Assembly: GCF_004302915.1 (NCBI RefSeq)
Contig: NZ_QQBI01000001.1
Location: 216,267 to 280,266 of the forward strand
Direction: 5' to 3'
Origin: Komagataeibacter xylinus
GTDB taxonomy: Bacteria > Pseudomonadota > Alphaproteobacteria > Acetobacterales > Acetobacteraceae
DNA: 64,000 nucleotides
Shown: piece by piece, positions 317 to 64,000 of the stretch
Numbering within the stretch: the stretch's first letter is position 1
How the letters are laid out: each line of letters opens with the position of its first letter
Translations under genes and position numbers: made by a program
Notes under the pieces: model-generated
The model's input: only the letters and a program-made list of their open reading frames with translations
What the model was told of the DNA's origin: nothing
Database searches by the model: none

Positions 317-841
317 TTGTCCAGACCTTCCTCTCAAAAAATCATGCAATTCCTTAAATTCGGGATTGTTGGTGCATTGGGGCTGGTGTGGGACACGACA
401 ACCGTTTACTCGCTGCGCCCCTTTGTCGGCCTGACAACCGCAACCATTGCCGCGTATTTCATCGCAGCCTCCATCAACTGGCTGATCAACCGGCTCTGGA
501 CCTTCCGCAATGCGGGCAACCAGCATCATTTCATTATCCAGTGGCTCCGCTTTCTCGCGGCGAACTCCCTGGGCTTTTTCCTGAACCGCGGCTGCGTGTT
601 CATGCTGTTCCACACATCGCCCGTGTTCAAGGCCTATCCGGTGCTGGCGCTCGCGGCCGGTGCGTTAGCCGGCATGATGTCGAACTTCCATATCAGTCGT
701 AAGCTGGTCTTCCATAAGGAACACCCCGCAGCGGAACTGAAAACAGCGGAAATCGTGCCCTTTCAGCCCGAGCGCCCCGTGCCCCAGAAAGCAGTCTCGA
801 GCCGCACCGCCGTAGTGAACACACGCAACAAGGTCGGATAA
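317..841 (+). CDS. GtrA-like small membrane protein
   Basis: A 174-residue protein of the GtrA/DPMS-type family. It has four hydrophobic segments (about residues 13-33, 38-60, 75-97, 103-125) and the typical short motifs NWLINRLWTFR and SNFHISRKLVF. Family members help move polyprenyl-phosphate-linked sugars across the inner membrane for surface polysaccharide modification. The start is a TTG: AAGGA lies 7 nt upstream (305-309), and the nearest ATG (344) would remove the first nine residues. The hydrophilic C-terminal tail of about 45 residues is unusually long. The 3' end overlaps the convergent tenA gene by 79 bp. No glycosyltransferase partner is next to it, so its substrate is unknown. 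Confidence 0.8.
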   Translation: MSRPSSQKIMQFLKFGIVGALGLVWDTTTVYSLRPFVGLTTATIAAYFIAASINWLINRLWTFRNAGNQHHFIIQWLRFLAANSLGFFLNRGCVFMLFHTSPVFKAYPVLALAAGALAGMMSNFHISRKLVFHKEHPAAELKTAEIVPFQPERPVPQKAVSSRTAVVNTRNKVG

Positions 842-1467
842 CGCGCCTGCGCCCCATAAGGGGTGGCCAGCGCATCAAGCTGGCGAATGCCGTCCTCCAC
901 CAGTTGTGTATACTCAGCCCCCCCATAAAGCGTGATCCATGACCAGTATGGATTGCCCTCCCGCACGGTCAGCGGACTGGCATGCAGCCGTGCGCCGACT
1001 TCCGCATAGCCGATCAGGCATGGGGCCATGGTCACCATCAGGTCAAGCAGGTCGCCTGTCTGGGCTCGATCAAGTATAAAGCGACTATAGGCAAGTAATT
1101 CGAGCGATTCCTCGGCGTTTTCCAGTGCCGTTTCTTCTATGCCCCAATGGCGGCAATAACCCACATGCATGGCCAGTTCCGTATCGAGTATGCCCGCCAT
1201 CAGCCCTGCCGCATGGCGCATGCTGGCCACCGTATCGGCCTTGTACACCGCCAGCGCGCAGGCGCGGGCATACTGGATGAGGTACAGGTAGTCCTGAATC
1301 AGGAAATTGCGAAACGCCTCGGGCGGTAATGTGCCATCCGCAATACCGCGCACGAAGGGGTGGCGCACGAAGCCCAGCCACTGCGCCATGCAGTCACGCC
1401 GCAGGCGGCCGGCAAGCCCCGTGGTCAGCAGGGGCCAGTCGCGTTCGGCCTGCCATTCATCATCCAT
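763..1467 (-). CDS. tenA: TenA-family thiaminase II / aminopyrimidine aminohydrolase
   Basis: A 234-residue all-helical TenA protein. It has the family signatures LIQDYLYLIQYA near the N-terminus, the APCLIGYAEVG segment carrying the conserved active-site cysteine, and YGGAEYTQLV near the end. TenA enzymes hydrolyse aminopyrimidine breakdown products of thiamine so that the pyrimidine can be salvaged. The start at 1467 (MDDEW) is preferred over the upstream ATG at 1503 because AAAGGA lies 8 nt before it. The gene stands alone, and its last 79 bp are antisense to the end of the gtrA-like gene. Confidence 0.85.
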   Translation of the reverse strand: MDDEWQAERDWPLLTTGLAGRLRRDCMAQWLGFVRHPFVRGIADGTLPPEAFRNFLIQDYLYLIQYARACALAVYKADTVASMRHAAGLMAGILDTELAMHVGYCRHWGIEETALENAEESLELLAYSRFILDRAQTGDLLDLMVTMAPCLIGYAEVGARLHASPLTVREGNPYWSWITLYGGAEYTQLVEDGIRQLDALATPYGAQARYPTLLRVFTTAVRLETAFWGTGRSG

Positions 1468-12733: not shown

Positions 12734-12812
12734 AAAAGCTTTCGGGTGCCGCCTTTTTCCAAAAAGGCGGTGTTTCCCGAAGCTTTTTGAAAAAAGCTTC
12801 ACCAAAAACTTT
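12734..12812 (-). repeat. Structured intergenic repeat, copy A
   Basis: Full-length element in the reverse orientation relative to copy I. It has a left terminus AAAAGCTTTCGGG, a GCCGCC/GGCGG hairpin, a GAAGCTTTTT/AAAAAAGCTTC hairpin and a right terminus CCAAAAACTTT. It lies 1 bp after the trmJ stop, in the convergent trmJ/gltX gap and before the gltX terminator. Confidence 0.85.
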
Positions 12813-12818
12813 CAATCC

Positions 12819-12850
12819 AAAAAGGCCCGGTTTTCATGCCGGGCCTTTTT
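12819..12850. terminator. Bidirectional terminator between trmJ and gltX
   Basis: AAAAAGGCCCGG and CCGGGCCTTTTT flank an 8-nt loop. Each strand ends in a U-tract, so it can stop both trmJ and gltX transcription. Confidence 0.92.
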
Positions 12851-14192: not shown

Positions 14193-14242
14193 GCCCCTTA
14201 TATGCGGCGATTACGCCCCGAACGCCAGAGAACACATGCATG

Positions 14243-14316
14243 AAACGGGTGTCGCCTTTTTTCAGGAAGGCGGCGTTCCCTGAAGCTTTCTGAAAAAAGC
14301 TTCACCAGAAATTTTT
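14243..14316 (-). repeat. Structured intergenic repeat, copy B
   Basis: A slightly diverged full copy in the same orientation as copy A. It has a CGCC/GGCG hairpin, the GAAGCTTTCT/GAAAAAAGCTTC hairpin and a terminus CCAGAAATTTTT. It lies upstream of gltX and 18 bp downstream of the gene ending at 14335. Confidence 0.8.
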
Positions 14317-17984: not shown

Positions 17985-18064
17985 AAACGTTTTTGGTGAA
18001 GCTTTTTTCAAAAAGCTTCACAAGACGCCGCCTTTTTGAAAAAAGGCGGCATCCGGAAACTTTT
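17985..18064 (+). repeat. Structured intergenic repeat, copy C
   Basis: Full-length copy in the same orientation as copy I. Order is AAACGTTTTTGG terminus, GAAGCTTTTTT/AAAAAGCTTC hairpin, GCCGCCTTTTT/AAAAAAGGCGGC hairpin, CCGGAAACTTTT terminus. It fills the convergent gap between the 17627 gene and gor. Confidence 0.85.
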
Positions 18065-23249: not shown

Positions 23250-23329
23250 GAAGTTTTTGGTGAAGCTTTCTTCAAAAAGCTTCAGAAGAACGCCGCCTTT
23301 TTGAAAAAAGGCGGCCCCCGGAAACTTCT
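23250..23329 (+). repeat. Structured intergenic repeat, copy D
   Basis: Full copy oriented like copies C and I: AAGTTTTTGG terminus, GAAGCTTTCT/AAAAAGCTTC hairpin, GCCGCC/GGCGGC hairpin, CCGGAAACTT terminus. It begins 8 bp after the helicase stop and fills the convergent gap with serS. Confidence 0.85.
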
Positions 23330-38524: not shown

Positions 38525-38566
38525 AAACGCCGCCTTTTTGAAAAAAGGTGGCCCCCAGAAACTTTT
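38525..38566 (+). repeat. Structured intergenic repeat, copy E (half element)
   Basis: Only the right half is present: the GCCGCCTTTTT/AAAAAAGGTGGC hairpin and a CCAGAAACTTTT terminus. It lies 32 bp downstream of the NUDIX gene, between it and htpG. Confidence 0.75.
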
Positions 38567-38598
38567 CCATTTTATCAAGTTATTGTTTTCAAACGGTT

Positions 38599-39228
38599 TC
38601 AGTCAAAATCCGTAGGCAGGTCGGGGTTGGCGGCATGCTCGAACATGCGGGTCAACTGGCTGGGCAGCACGCGGCCAAGCGAGAGGTCGGTGGGCAGTTG
38701 GTCTGCCGCAAACCAGCCGATCTCCGATGTTTCGATACTGGTCTCGGCGCTGCCGCCGGTCAGTTGGCAGATGAAATACAGCGTGCAGCATGAAAACAGT
38801 CCGGGCGGGTGGCCCTGCCGGTCGCGGTCCCACACGGCGGCGAGCTTGGTCACGCGCACGCTAAACCCGCTCTCCTCGCGCACTTCCTTCACCGTATTTT
38901 CCACCGGGGTCAGGTTCACATCCGCCCAGCCGCCCGGCAGGGTCCAGCGGTCACGGTCCAGCACCTCGCGCACCAGCAGCATGCGGCCCTGCGCATCGAA
39001 CACGGCGGCGCGCACCGTCAGCTTGGGTGTGGCATAGCCGTCCTGATCGCTGAACAGGTCAAGCACGCGCGCTATGTCGGCATCGCTGCCCGCGGCCATC
39101 ATGTCGGCTGCGATCTGCCTTATGCTTTCATAACGCTCGCGATCAAACGGGCTTTCGGCATAGGCCAGGCCACTCTGGGCCAGTGCCTGCAGGTCACGGG
39201 CCCAGATGAGCCATTGCGGGGTTGTCAT
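38599..39228 (-). CDS. NUDIX hydrolase with atypical Nudix box
   Basis: A 209-residue protein with the N-terminal helical domain common to YjhB-type ADP-ribose pyrophosphatase-like NUDIX proteins, then a NUDIX fold from about residue 70. The box reads GGWADVNLTPVENTVKEVREESGF. The catalytic EExxG part is intact, but the first conserved Glu is Leu and the usual Arg of REU is Lys. Such changes may alter metal binding or substrate. It starts inside the end of the DUF985 gene (ATGA overlap) and probably forms an operon with it. Confidence 0.83.
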   Translation of the reverse strand: MTTPQWLIWARDLQALAQSGLAYAESPFDRERYESIRQIAADMMAAGSDADIARVLDLFSDQDGYATPKLTVRAAVFDAQGRMLLVREVLDRDRWTLPGGWADVNLTPVENTVKEVREESGFSVRVTKLAAVWDRDRQGHPPGLFSCCTLYFICQLTGGSAETSIETSEIGWFAADQLPTDLSLGRVLPSQLTRMFEHAANPDLPTDFD

Positions 39229-39683: not shown

Positions 39684-39765
39684 GGGGTGTGGCTCCGGTC
39701 ATGATCGCATGCTCCGGCGTAGCCCTCCTGCCGCCGGGCTGCAAACGGCAGGGAAATAAAGAATG

Positions 39766-39842
39766 AAAGTTTCTGGGTGCCACCTTTTTTCAAGAATGCA
39801 GTGTTCTTCGAAGCTTTTTGAAAAAAGCTTCACCAAAAACTT
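39766..39842 (-). repeat. Structured intergenic repeat, copy F
   Basis: Full-length copy in reverse orientation. The left hairpin is degenerate (CCACCTTTTT facing GAATGCAGTG). The GAAGCTTTTT/AAAAAAGCTTC hairpin and the termini AAAGTTTCTGGG and CCAAAAACTT are intact. It lies between the 39889 gene and the DUF985 gene start. Confidence 0.8.
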
Positions 39843-39888
39843 CCTTATGATTCCTGGACGTTTGCTGAGCTGGCTTTTCAAACAGTCT

Positions 39889-40563
39889 CTAAGGGCGGGC
39901 TGGCCCTCTTGCCTGCCCTTCTGGCGCAAAAGCGAGAGTCTGGTCGGTATAGGTTTCCACCACCTCGCTAAAGGCACGTCCCTGCCCGTCGCGCAGCACG
40001 GCGCGCTGGCGCACGATCTCGGTCGGGGCCACGATCATTGTCCCCGCGGCCCCTCCCGGCCACGGTGACCACAGCCGCGTAAATTCCAGCCGCTCGCGGG
40101 TAAAATGCAGGGGCGCCACCACATGGCCGAAGGATGTATCGGTCTGCTCGAGCGTGGCATTCATCTGCGGGGTCAGCAGGCCGGGCACATACCAGTTATC
40201 CGCCACCGAAAGCACATACGGGCCGCAGGCCAGCTGCACCTGTCGGTGCCGCACGGGTTGCGTGGCACTCACGCCCAGATCGGCCCGCACCCGCGCGGGC
40301 ACGGGGTCAGGCTGCGGCAGGGCTGCCTTGCGCGCCACCACCACGGGGCGGGCAGCCATATGATGGGTTGCACACCAGTCCTCCAGCGCCAGCGTGGCGC
40401 TGGGGTGGGTGAGCAGGGTTATTTCCAGCTCCTGCACGCTCATCATCAGGCGCGCGCGGTGATCTGGCGTATCGGGCCATGAAAGGCCGGCTGCCTGTAC
40501 AGGGCTGGCAGCCAGCAGGCCAGCCCCCATGGTCGCAGCTACCAGCAGCCCCCTGCCCATCAC
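39889..40563 (-). CDS. Exported protein with chorismate-lyase-like fold (tentative)
   Basis: A 224-residue protein with a signal peptide (GLLVAATMGAGLLAASPVQAAG). The middle and end recall the UbiC/chorismate lyase-like fold: ADNWYVPGLLTPQMNATL, TDTSFGHVV and RAVLRDGQGRAFSEVVETYT. Canonical UbiC is cytoplasmic and makes 4-hydroxybenzoate for ubiquinone, whereas this one is predicted to be exported, so the activity is doubtful. It ends 46 bp from repeat copy F and begins 8 bp after bglxA on the same strand, so it may be read through from bglxA. Confidence 0.6.
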   Translation of the reverse strand: MMGRGLLVAATMGAGLLAASPVQAAGLSWPDTPDHRARLMMSVQELEITLLTHPSATLALEDWCATHHMAARPVVVARKAALPQPDPVPARVRADLGVSATQPVRHRQVQLACGPYVLSVADNWYVPGLLTPQMNATLEQTDTSFGHVVAPLHFTRERLEFTRLWSPWPGGAAGTMIVAPTEIVRQRAVLRDGQGRAFSEVVETYTDQTLAFAPEGQARGPARP

Positions 40564-54957: not shown

Positions 54958-55033
54958 TGGCGTCCCGTAGGGGATTCGAACCCCTGTTGCCGCCGTGAGA
55001 GGGCAGTGTCCTAGGCCTCTAGACGAACGGGAC
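54958..55033 (-). tRNA. tRNA-Glu (anticodon CTC)
   Basis: A 76-nt cloverleaf including an encoded 3' CCA. The acceptor GTCCCGT pairs with ACGGGAC. The T-arm has GGTTCGAATCC. The anticodon stem CTGCC/GGCGG holds loop CTCTCAC, giving CTC. It is transcribed toward the cellulose locus but has its own terminator. Confidence 0.97.
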
Positions 55034-57626: not shown

Positions 57627-57676
57627 AAAGGTGGCGCTCTTTAAAGCTTTTTGAAAAAAGCTTGACCAGGAACTTT
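57627..57676 (-). repeat. Structured intergenic repeat, copy G (deleted form)
   Basis: A shortened copy just after rpoH. It keeps AAAGGTGGCG, the AAAGCTTTTT/AAAAAAGCTT hairpin and a CCAGGAACTTT terminus, while the rest of the left hairpin is lost. Confidence 0.7.
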
Positions 57677-57745: not shown

Positions 57746-57824
57746 GACGTTTTTGGCGAAGCTTTTCCCAAAATCTCCAAGGAAATGCCGCCTTTCCAGA
57801 AAAAAGGCGACCTCCAGAAACGTC
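57746..57824 (+). repeat. Structured intergenic repeat, copy H (diverged)
   Basis: A degenerate full-length copy. Its internal hairpins are partly decayed, but the termini GACGTTTTTGG and CCAGAAACGTC still pair. The GACG/CGTC ends differ from other copies in a compensatory way. It lies 13 bp downstream of purA. Confidence 0.7.
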
Positions 57825-61708: not shown

Positions 61709-61792
61709 TGGTGCGAGAGGGGGGATTCGAACCCCCATGCCTTGCGGCGGTCGATTTTGAGTCGACTACGTCTACCGTTCCGTCACTCTCGC
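61709..61792 (-). tRNA. tRNA-Leu (anticodon CAA)
   Basis: An 84-nt gene with encoded CCA. The acceptor GCGAGAG pairs with CTCTCGC. The anticodon stem GTCGA/TCGAC holds loop CTCAAAA, giving CAA. A long variable arm (CGCC..GGC) follows, and the T-arm contains GGTTCGAATCC, as expected of class II tRNA-Leu. It is 66 bp upstream of serC. Confidence 0.97.
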
Positions 61793-62899: not shown

Positions 62900-63694
62900 A
62901 TGCAAGACGCCACAGCCCCCCTCCAACGCCTGCTGGGCATCATGGCCCGCCTGCGTGACCCCGAGAGCGGCTGCCCGTGGGACAGGGCGCAGGATTTTGC
63001 CTCGATCGCGCCCTACAGCATTGAAGAAGCCTATGAAGTGGCCGACACCATTGCGCGCGAGGACTGGGAGGGCCTGCCCGATGAACTGGGCGACCTGCTG
63101 CTCCAGGTCGTCTATCACGCGCAGATGGCCGATGAGAAAGGCCTGTTCGACTTCGCCACCGTGGCCACCCTGATCGGCGACAAGATGGTCCGCCGCCACC
63201 CCCATGTCTTTGGCGAGGCCGAAGCCGCACCCGGCCAGTGGGAAAGCGGCAAGGCGCTCGAACGCCTCGCCCGCAACCGGCGCGGCACGCTCGATGACGT
63301 GCCCGTGGGCCTGCCGGCCCTCATGCGCGCGCGCAAGCTCTCGGCCCGCGCCGCCCGCGTGGGGTTTGACTGGGATACGGTGGGCGAGGTCGCCGCCAAG
63401 GTGGATGAGGAACTCGATGAACTGAAGGTCGAGCTTGAAAGCGGTGACCGCGACAAGATCTTCGATGAACTCGGCGACGTGCTGTTCACGCTGGCAACCC
63501 TGGCCCGCAAGCTCGACATGGACCCCGAGGCCTGCCTGCGCCAGGCCAATGCCAAGTTCACCCGCCGCTTTACCGCCGTCGAGCACGATCTGGCTGACCG
63601 GGGGCTGGCACTGGCCGATGTGGATGTAAAAACCATGGAGGAAGGCTGGCAGGCGGTGAAACGCCGCGAGCGTGCAGCAACAAAAAAGACTTAA
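62900..63694 (+). CDS. mazG: Nucleoside triphosphate pyrophosphohydrolase MazG
   Basis: A 264-residue housecleaning NTP pyrophosphatase with two MazG domains. The first has CPWDRAQ, YSIEEAYEVADTI and DELGDLLLQVVYHAQ; the second has VDEELDELKVELESG and DELGDVLFTLATLAR. The EExxE/D metal-binding motifs are intact in both halves. The start at 62900 follows AGGAA by 8 nt. It is followed by repeat copy I. Confidence 0.94.
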   Translation: MQDATAPLQRLLGIMARLRDPESGCPWDRAQDFASIAPYSIEEAYEVADTIAREDWEGLPDELGDLLLQVVYHAQMADEKGLFDFATVATLIGDKMVRRHPHVFGEAEAAPGQWESGKALERLARNRRGTLDDVPVGLPALMRARKLSARAARVGFDWDTVGEVAAKVDEELDELKVELESGDRDKIFDELGDVLFTLATLARKLDMDPEACLRQANAKFTRRFTAVEHDLADRGLALADVDVKTMEEGWQAVKRRERAATKKT

Positions 63695-63699
63695 AAATC

Positions 63700-63780
63700 A
63701 AAAGTTTTTGGTGAAGCTTTTTTCAAAAAGCTTCGAAAGAACGCCGCCTTTTTGAAAAAAGGCGGCACCCAAAAACTTTT
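63700..63780 (+). repeat. Structured intergenic repeat, copy I (best-preserved)
   Basis: An 81-bp reference copy. Termini AAAAGTTTTTGG and CCAAAAACTTTT are perfect 12-bp inverted repeats. Between them lie hairpin 1 (GAAGCTTTTTT/AAAAAGCTTC) and hairpin 2 (GCCGCCTTTTT/AAAAAAGGCGGC). It starts 5 bp after mazG and fills the convergent gap to the next gene. Confidence 0.9.
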
Positions 63781-63785
63781 ATCTT

Positions 63786-64000
63786 TTATGCCACCGTCAG
63801 CAGCAGGTCATGCAGCGCCTGCCAGCTTGCCCGGTCAGGCGCATAAAGCAGCCCGCCGCTGCGATCCGTCACGCGGTAGGGCGTGCCATCAAAATGGGCG
63901 CTGTAGCCGCCTGCTTCCTGATGGATCAGCCAGCCCGCCAGATGGTCCCACGGCAGGGTGCGGTTGAACAGCAGGAAATGGCAGCGCCCATCGACCAGCA
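63786..64000 (-). CDS. Inositol monophosphatase-family protein, C-terminal fragment
   Basis: About 70 residues before the TAA stop at 63786-63788, with the 5' part beyond the window. The segment LPWDHLAGWLIHQEAGGYSA contains the conserved WD(x)AAG-like metal-site region of the inositol monophosphatase superfamily, written here PWDHLAGWLI. The end runs GGLLYAPDRASWQALHDLL. The family includes inositol and histidinol phosphatases and CysQ; which one cannot be decided from this piece. Confidence 0.8.
   Translation of the reverse strand, partial: LVDGRCHFLLFNRTLPWDHLAGWLIHQEAGGYSAHFDGTPYRVTDRSGGLLYAPDRASWQALHDLLLTVA

Follow-up and report, generated by a model that had tools for sequence, protein, structure and literature searches.

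The repeat at positions 63700-63780 of the window, the analysed 64,000-nucleotide stretch of Komagataeibacter xylinus DNA, belongs to a high-copy interspersed family that in Komagataeibacter and Novacetimonas lies within a MITE of approximately 162 bp with IS5-type ends. This is directly supported by the copy number, the ends, the TTA/TAA duplication, one insertion polymorphism, the preference for 3' ends of genes and for convergent gaps, covariation, and changes of orientation between species. There is about an even chance that this mobile REP/BIME-like repeat is kept as a terminator or 3'-end module, which would act more strongly in one direction. A selfish element that is tolerated at gene ends is the main rival.

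The nine sites listed in the initial annotation all carry the repeat, as established by inspection and by a covariance model; seven are full, and those at 38525 and 57627 are truncated. The seven full copies were used to build this model, designated R1, which rescored them at 70-102 bits and the fragments at 40 (38525) and 29 bits (57627), and all 18 rows up to E=1 in the window search fell on the nine sites. Full cores occur on the plus strand at 63700-63780 (102 bits), in a convergent gap with the L head towards a mazG-like gene, at 17985-18064 (100 bits), and at 23250-23329 (99 bits), in the convergent gap between an SUV3 helicase gene, whose protein is 96-99% identical to those of K. xylinus and K. 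nataicola, and serS. A further full core lies on the minus strand at 12734-12812 (98 bits), in a convergent gap and 1 nt past the stop codon of a SpoU-methylase gene. The gap at 17985 is convergent according to the gene caller, since its left gene lacks a Pfam match. Two more minus-strand cores are found in tandem gaps: that at 14242-14316 (76 bits) has a shortened right stem and lies behind a minus-strand gene, and that at 39765-39843 (86 bits) has retained its left MITE arm (39844-39889, minus), with the IS5-type end GAGACTGTTTGAAAA at 39875-39889 followed by TAA. The fragment at 38525-38566 (plus) consists of the right half only, a single REP-like unit, in a tandem gap with its head towards the upstream gene, and a decayed right MITE arm follows at 38567-38603 (plus). 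Finally, one convergent gap holds both the partial copy at 57627-57676 (minus), which starts 4 bases past a sigma-factor stop codon and is followed by a canonical terminator, and a full, diverged core at 57746-57824 (plus, 70 bits). Where five of seven occupied gaps had been counted as convergent, the gene calls give eight gaps, five convergent and three tandem.

In common orientation the full copies align over approximately 80 bases and share one layout. From the A/T-rich L head AAAAGTTTTTGG onwards they comprise hairpin 1 GAAGCTTTTTTCAAAAAGCTTC, a linker rich in purines, hairpin 2 GCCGCCTTTTTGAAAAAAGGCGGC, and the R head CCAAAAACTTTT, and the two heads pair with each other. The core matches its own opposite strand with 76% identity over 81 bases, and it is an inverted pair of head-plus-hairpin (REP-like) units, because its halves are alike once one is reverse-complemented. 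The three-armed fold proposed earlier was recovered for both strands of 63700-63780: the plus strand forms a three-way junction of -36.5 kcal/mol (z -6.2; 0 of 200 shuffles match) and the opposite strand folds at -36.9 kcal/mol (z -5.8). It does not extend to every copy, as among the six that were folded (14243 was left out) the 12734 copy folds differently on both strands and the 57746 and 39766 copies have one damaged arm each. Covariation of the stems was at chance level within the seven window copies alone (2 pairs versus 1.4 in shuffles) and was evident on 97 copies, in which 13 of 31 pairs had changed on both sides, compared with 7.0 in shuffles and at most 11 in slid controls, and 42 two-sided cells were counted, compared with 18.6 in shuffles, none of 500 of which reached 42, and at most 25 in slid controls. 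A known RNA family was rejected for the repeat, as all Rfam scores were below gathering, the best weak match at 63600-63900 reaching 28.5 bits against a gathering score of 50. The only Rfam matches in the window above the gathering score were two tRNA genes, at 54961-55033 and 61712-61792 (-).

Some copies have longer conserved flanks, arranged as GAGACTGTTTGAAAA, arm, core, arm, and TTTTCAAACAGTCTC over approximately 162 bp, and the 80-bp unit that had been taken for the full element is only the core of this form. The end GAGACTGTTTGAAAA occurs 24 times in the window's genome with at most one mismatch, as opposed to 0 occurrences of the reversed pattern, and in eight distinct copies it is present at both ends as terminal inverted repeats, allowing up to 4 mismatches in the second. 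TTA or TAA adjoins 20 of the 24 ends, and seven of the eight two-ended copies have the identical triplet on both sides, as a target site duplication; one is without it. Duplication of TNA is typical of IS5/IS1031-type elements. Taken with the inverted REP-like units, these ends and duplications bear out the earlier suggestion of a non-autonomous mobile element of MITE/REP-like type. The accompanying idea that it targets terminators found no support, as insertion is at TTA/TAA and this triplet is a called stop codon at 4 of the 24 ends. Such insertion can recreate or supply stop codons. At 39875-39892 the first G of the MITE end completes the TAG of the neighbouring gene (39889-40560, minus strand), which lacks a Pfam match.

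Among the long-form matches listed genus-wide, most end at GAGACTGTTTGAAAA-type ends, and the 162-bp form was found on six plasmids, all from Komagataeibacter or Novacetimonas. A phage origin was rejected, the 162-bp form being unmatched among 50,697 phage records. In A. musti a recognisable end (at most 4 mismatches) is present on the L side of 6 of 11 copies and on the R side of none of the 11. A search for insertion polymorphism covered six loci, three of which were alignable, and revealed one MITE of the window's genome that G014 and G003, two of the three alignable species, lack at the orthologous site, the third being too divergent to judge. This polymorphic MITE sits at a TTA in the loop of an older core hairpin. 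A second long-form site, compared in four species, yielded no unambiguous empty allele: it has one shortened related insert, two copies in opposite orientation, and one species without a copy. For core-only copies, no clean empty site was found among the orthologous sites compared.

Of 30 loci with an IS5-type transposase that were examined, two, both from Komagataeibacter genomes and encoding a transposase of the IS5 family, have MITE-like ends. The first, L208 (genome G012), spans 2.7 kb between ends GTGACTGTTTGAAAA with 1 mismatch each and has TGA on both sides; the second, L209 (G014), shows one MITE-like end with 1 mismatch. These two loci are candidate autonomous partners of the MITE. 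No transposon of this type was seen in the window's genome, nor was any of its 24 ends observed to have, within 1.5 kb, a matching partner with a transposase in between. Beside the transposase both loci have a conserved structured stretch (L208:1173-1303 and L209:1162-1292, minus), weakly like sRNA-Xcc1 (31 bits versus a gathering score of 53), and L208 also carries a passenger gene with a bacterial PH domain (698-1114 (-), PF03703) and two small genes without a Pfam match. Mobilisation by a RAYT/IS200 system was rejected for the window's genome, where the Y1 (RAYT) transposase domain PF01797 had 0 matches, while 5 of 14 control genomes were positive. The GTAG or CGTC head tag is likewise absent, the head reading AAAAGTTTTTGG/AAAAGTTTTTTG in the alignments.

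As shown by a genome-wide search, copies extend well beyond the window. R1 gave at least 150 positives in the window's genome, all 150 examined candidates being positive, and 63 places were occupied in 459 kb of it (better strand kept from 101 rows), which extrapolates to approximately 500 per 3.63 Mb. All 18 other genomes of the same genus were positive, with 38 to at least 118 matches each, as were Novacetimonas cocois (at least 150), Acetobacter garciniae (140), A. musti (at least 150), and A. sicerae (42), and no R1 matches were found in the genomes of Gluconacetobacter johannae and G. diazotrophicus. Across Acetobacteraceae, 31 of 200 genomes and 18 of 102 genera were positive with R1. 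Many weaker matches follow the same plan with other stems, for example CTCCC/GGGAG and CTTC/GAAG compared with GAAGC/GCTTC. A second model, R2, was built from eight such loci from other genera, picked for clean alignment and including no sequence of the window's own genus; these loci had themselves been found by R1. R2 matched 56 of 200 genomes and 30 of the 102 sampled genera, including the own genus at 5e-10, and an element confined to one genus was thereby rejected. The R2 set showed covariation in 6 pairs and 11 cells. These relatives may have one shared origin, or the plan may have arisen repeatedly.

Organisation of the REP/BIME type, with single units as well as inverted pairs of head plus hairpin, was encountered in G095 and G101, two genomes of other genera in which single units are common beside inverted pairs; half elements are also present in the window's genome. 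The intergenic DNA of G095 and G101 holds 20 and 25 units, respectively, compared with 0 in 10 order-1 Markov shuffles of each. Together their occupied gaps comprise 14 of 70 convergent, 22 of 234 tandem, and 2 of 78 divergent gaps (p=0.0009, convergent versus divergent). With R2 alone the same convergent-divergent comparison was not significant, giving 3/42 versus 0/46 (p=0.10) and 2/28 versus 1/32 (p=0.59) in the two genomes, in which 8 of 29 R2 matches overlap called genes.

Enrichment 3' of genes was borne out in two independent samples. Genes were called with a hexamer gene caller, which agrees with Pfam for most neighbours tested, and gaps of at least 20 bp were counted, leaving out copies that overlap called genes (3 of 63 in the window's genome, 2 of 52 in G018). 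In the window's genome the core occupies 31 of 49 convergent, 26 of 170 tandem, and 2 of 59 divergent gaps (p=3e-12, convergent versus divergent), and in 400 kb of G018, which has no alignable stretch above 600 nt in common with the first sample, 25 of 50, 24 of 149, and 0 of 56. The corresponding counts in A. musti (400 kb, 11 copies) are 5 of 35, 4 of 135, and 0 of 36. Most copies in tandem gaps are no more than 30 nt away from the stop codon upstream (19 of 26 in the window's genome, 18 of 25 in G018). It is possible, and deserves serious attention, that the repeat is purely selfish, inserts at any TTA/TAA, and survives where it is harmless, in convergent gaps and behind genes, its palindrome being kept by recombination between copies together with the mechanism of transposition, and not by use. 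TTA/TAA sites would give such an element its targets and, in some copies, a stop codon, and divergent gaps are avoided, as harm would predict. Moreover, the pneumococcal RUP, BOX, SPRITE, and IS share the convergent bias, which their authors read partly in this way in the accessible text of their paper (PMC3049150). Convergent gaps are, however, preferred over tandem gaps although TTA/TAA sites outside cores in the window's genome number 82 in convergent, 513 in tandem, and 186 in divergent gaps; target supply therefore fails to explain the convergent excess.

The persistence of the core also speaks against a purely selfish repeat. Among 45 cores of at least 70 bits from the window's genome and G018, with a median identity of 91% to the consensus, a terminal inverted repeat with up to 3 substitutions was recognised at both ends of one and at one end of five. 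No MITE ends were found on the other 39, and arm identity was near background beyond 15-20 nt from the core. Since 39 of 45 well-preserved cores lack a recognisable end, the core persists longer than the mobile ends. This retention may reflect either selection on a useful core or recombination confined to the core that the copies share.

Comparison of orthologous sites bears on the selfish reading in both directions. Every window site has a copy or remnant in close species wherever the compared stretch covers the site, which speaks against a purely selfish element. Orthologous cores differ by 2.5-23% from the window copy, compared with 16-19% at 4-fold sites in purA in the five of six close species with a usable alignment; core divergence is thus close to that of 4-fold sites and makes no case for purifying selection on the sequence, in agreement with a selfish origin. 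The same holds for the observation that, among 45 copies at seven sites, 24 were at least as similar to a copy elsewhere as to their best orthologue (ties counted). Orientation at these sites varies between species. The copy at site 23250 is in plus orientation in the window, two strains of K. xylinus, K. nataicola, K. melomenusus, and A. garciniae, and in minus orientation in K. rhaeticus, K. melaceti, K. swingsii, K. oboediens, K. diospyri, N. cocois, and N. hansenii; K. saccharivorans and N. maltaceti have no copy there. Within the group of six close species, whose purA is 94-95% identical, G014 alone has the 63700 copy reversed and G015 alone the 17985 copy. The flanking bases are largely kept around both reversed copies, and their linkers are unlike those of orthologues that have not flipped. 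This points to replacement by another copy of the family, but simple inversion with later change may also account for the flips. The flips, together with orthologues that are often no more alike than other copies, indicate that the family is renewed in place, and homogenisation between copies could maintain the core sequence.

When the core is read from its R side, the linker comes after hairpin 2 as GUUCUUU or AUUCUUUUU, and this is the layout of an intrinsic terminator. With U-tract score weights from the terminator literature, the mean score after hairpin 2 was 1.64 right to left, and 1.36 and 1.66 beyond the two sides of the outer stem, compared with 0.63 at random intergenic positions. 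Hairpin 1 lacked a following U-tract in either reading (0.08 left to right and 0.10 right to left), as did hairpin 2 when read left to right (0.15). The R head points towards the upstream gene in 18 of 26 tandem-gap copies of the window's genome (p=0.08) and in 18 of 25 of G018 (p=0.04; pooled p=0.005), and counting by single units gives 18:9 and 11:12, respectively. As a general rule this bias is unsupported: it was not seen in A. musti (2 of 5), and two distant genera showed the opposite (9 head-first against 18 hairpin-first, p=0.12).

Separate canonical terminators were found in 9 of 31 convergent gaps with a core versus 10 of 18 without (p=0.08) in the window's genome, and in 2 of 26 tandem gaps with a core versus 20 of 144 without, or 0 of 17 versus 15 of 66 when only gaps of 90-300 bp are considered. 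The convergent comparison is weaker than its figures, because in one of the ten core-less gaps the terminator that was scored is the hairpin of a half core, and several more of these ten gaps hold remnants. The canonical bidirectional terminator hairpin at 12819-12850, as read from the sequence, is separate from the adjoining 12734 copy and argues against the core as the only terminator at that site. The earlier idea that the repeat replaces terminators or serves as a terminating module has support of an indirect and mixed kind from its position, the U-rich tails, and the somewhat lower number of separate terminators, and it is weakened by the 9 of 31 convergent gaps that have a terminator of their own.

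A terminator or 3'-end module would arise as follows. An IS5-family transposase would insert the MITE at TTA/TAA, insertions into promoters or genes would be lost, and behind genes the outer arms would decay. The core would be kept because transcription of one or both strands would end at its hairpins and the U-rich tracts that follow them, and the genome would thereby re-use a mobile repeat as an interchangeable terminator, the family being kept uniform by recombination between copies or by re-insertion. A more far-reaching version, which must be regarded as doubtful, is a self-renewing pool of terminators, in which one mobile family supplies the ends of at least half of the convergent pairs of Komagataeibacter, sites are overwritten, also in reverse, while function stays, and the two-unit design is kept with other stems across much of Acetobacteraceae.

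It is improbable that the repeat acts instead as a stabiliser or processing site of RNA 3' ends, with a junction in the mRNA tail that would block 3' exonucleases or be cut by RNase III, as proposed for REPs. The high stability of the fold in the 63700 copy, whichever strand is folded, the covariation of the stems, and the copies directly past stop codons would suit such a role, which by itself leaves the U-rich flanks unexplained. A DNA-level role, as a cruciform or protein-binding site that would absorb supercoils between converging transcription units, would fit the palindrome on both strands, the use of either orientation at convergent sites, and the tolerance of flips, and is very improbable, as it predicts neither the U-rich tails nor the placement behind single genes in tandem gaps.

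Bacterial IS5-family MITEs have terminal inverted repeats and a TNA duplication, lack an ORF, and are shorter than 200 bp. The present family differs in that most copies are without ends and keep an internal structured core, which also exists as separate families in other genera. The nearest in kind, in the accessible parts of the sources, are pneumococcal SPRITE and RUP, paired uptake terminators, and GTAG/CGTC REPs, none of which has this sequence, head, or mobile end. In Streptococcus pneumoniae, SPRITE, RUP, and BOX (30, 110, and 125 copies) are MITE-like repeats that are interspersed and over-represented in gaps between convergent genes; SPRITE, with AAAA/TTTT ends, is similar to a Rho-independent terminator, and the ends of RUP resemble the ends of a known IS (PMC3049150). 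The Komagataeibacter repeat is likewise MITE-like, interspersed, and biased to convergent gaps, but it has approximately 500 copies (extrapolated), another sequence, IS5-type ends, and two hairpins within an outer stem, and it spans many genera of another phylum. Furthermore, the accessible text on the pneumococcal repeats (PMC3049150) makes no mention of replacement in place as noted here.

GTAG/CGTC REPs and BIMEs are short head-plus-hairpin units, single or in inverted pairs, extragenic and present in hundreds per genome; the accessible text states that CGTC repeats are missing from Acetobacteraceae (PMC3733652). The Komagataeibacter repeat shares the head-plus-hairpin units, single or as inverted pairs, the high copy number, and the extragenic location, and differs in its AAAAGTTTTTTG-like head without GTAG/CGTC tag and in the lack of a Y1 (RAYT-type) match in the window's genome. 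Paired DNA uptake sequences of Neisseria and Pasteurellaceae form terminator hairpins that are enriched tail-to-tail, with T/A tails matching gene orientation (PMC1852404). In both cases a repeat family of other origin supplies terminator hairpins, putatively so here; uptake sequences are, in contrast, 10-bp words that are not transposon-borne, and no uptake role is known for the Komagataeibacter repeat. A 2024 review of MITEs, as far as its accessible text goes, calls a terminator role of bacterial MITEs "conceivable". The core, head, and end strings were unmatched in the literature searched, and none of the MITE, REP, or palindrome literature naming Komagataeibacter, Acetobacter, or Gluconacetobacter seems, from its accessible text, to describe the repeat; subscription papers were outside the scope of both searches.

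Should a terminator role be correct, a transposable element would rank among the main 3'-end signals of an entire bacterial genus, and its domestication, in which sites exchange family members in place, would be unusually complete. Annotators would then learn what several hundred unlabelled intergenic repeats are in Komagataeibacter, Novacetimonas, and Acetobacter, the bacteria of cellulose, vinegar, and kombucha, and synthetic biologists would gain a native set of insulating parts. Moreover, the old question of whether REP-like repeats are selfish or useful would become testable genome-wide.

Two further observations concern the relatives in other genomes. In G101 (L372-L391) several single units are followed by further shared flank like TCCGTTGGGCAGTGCC, which is perhaps the arm of another mobile carrier. 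Copies in A. musti (G045, L250-L269) are clustered, with none in C1 from approximately 76 to 217 kb or in C4:1-140000 and several in C4:154-210 kb, and this clustering could mark recently acquired segments.
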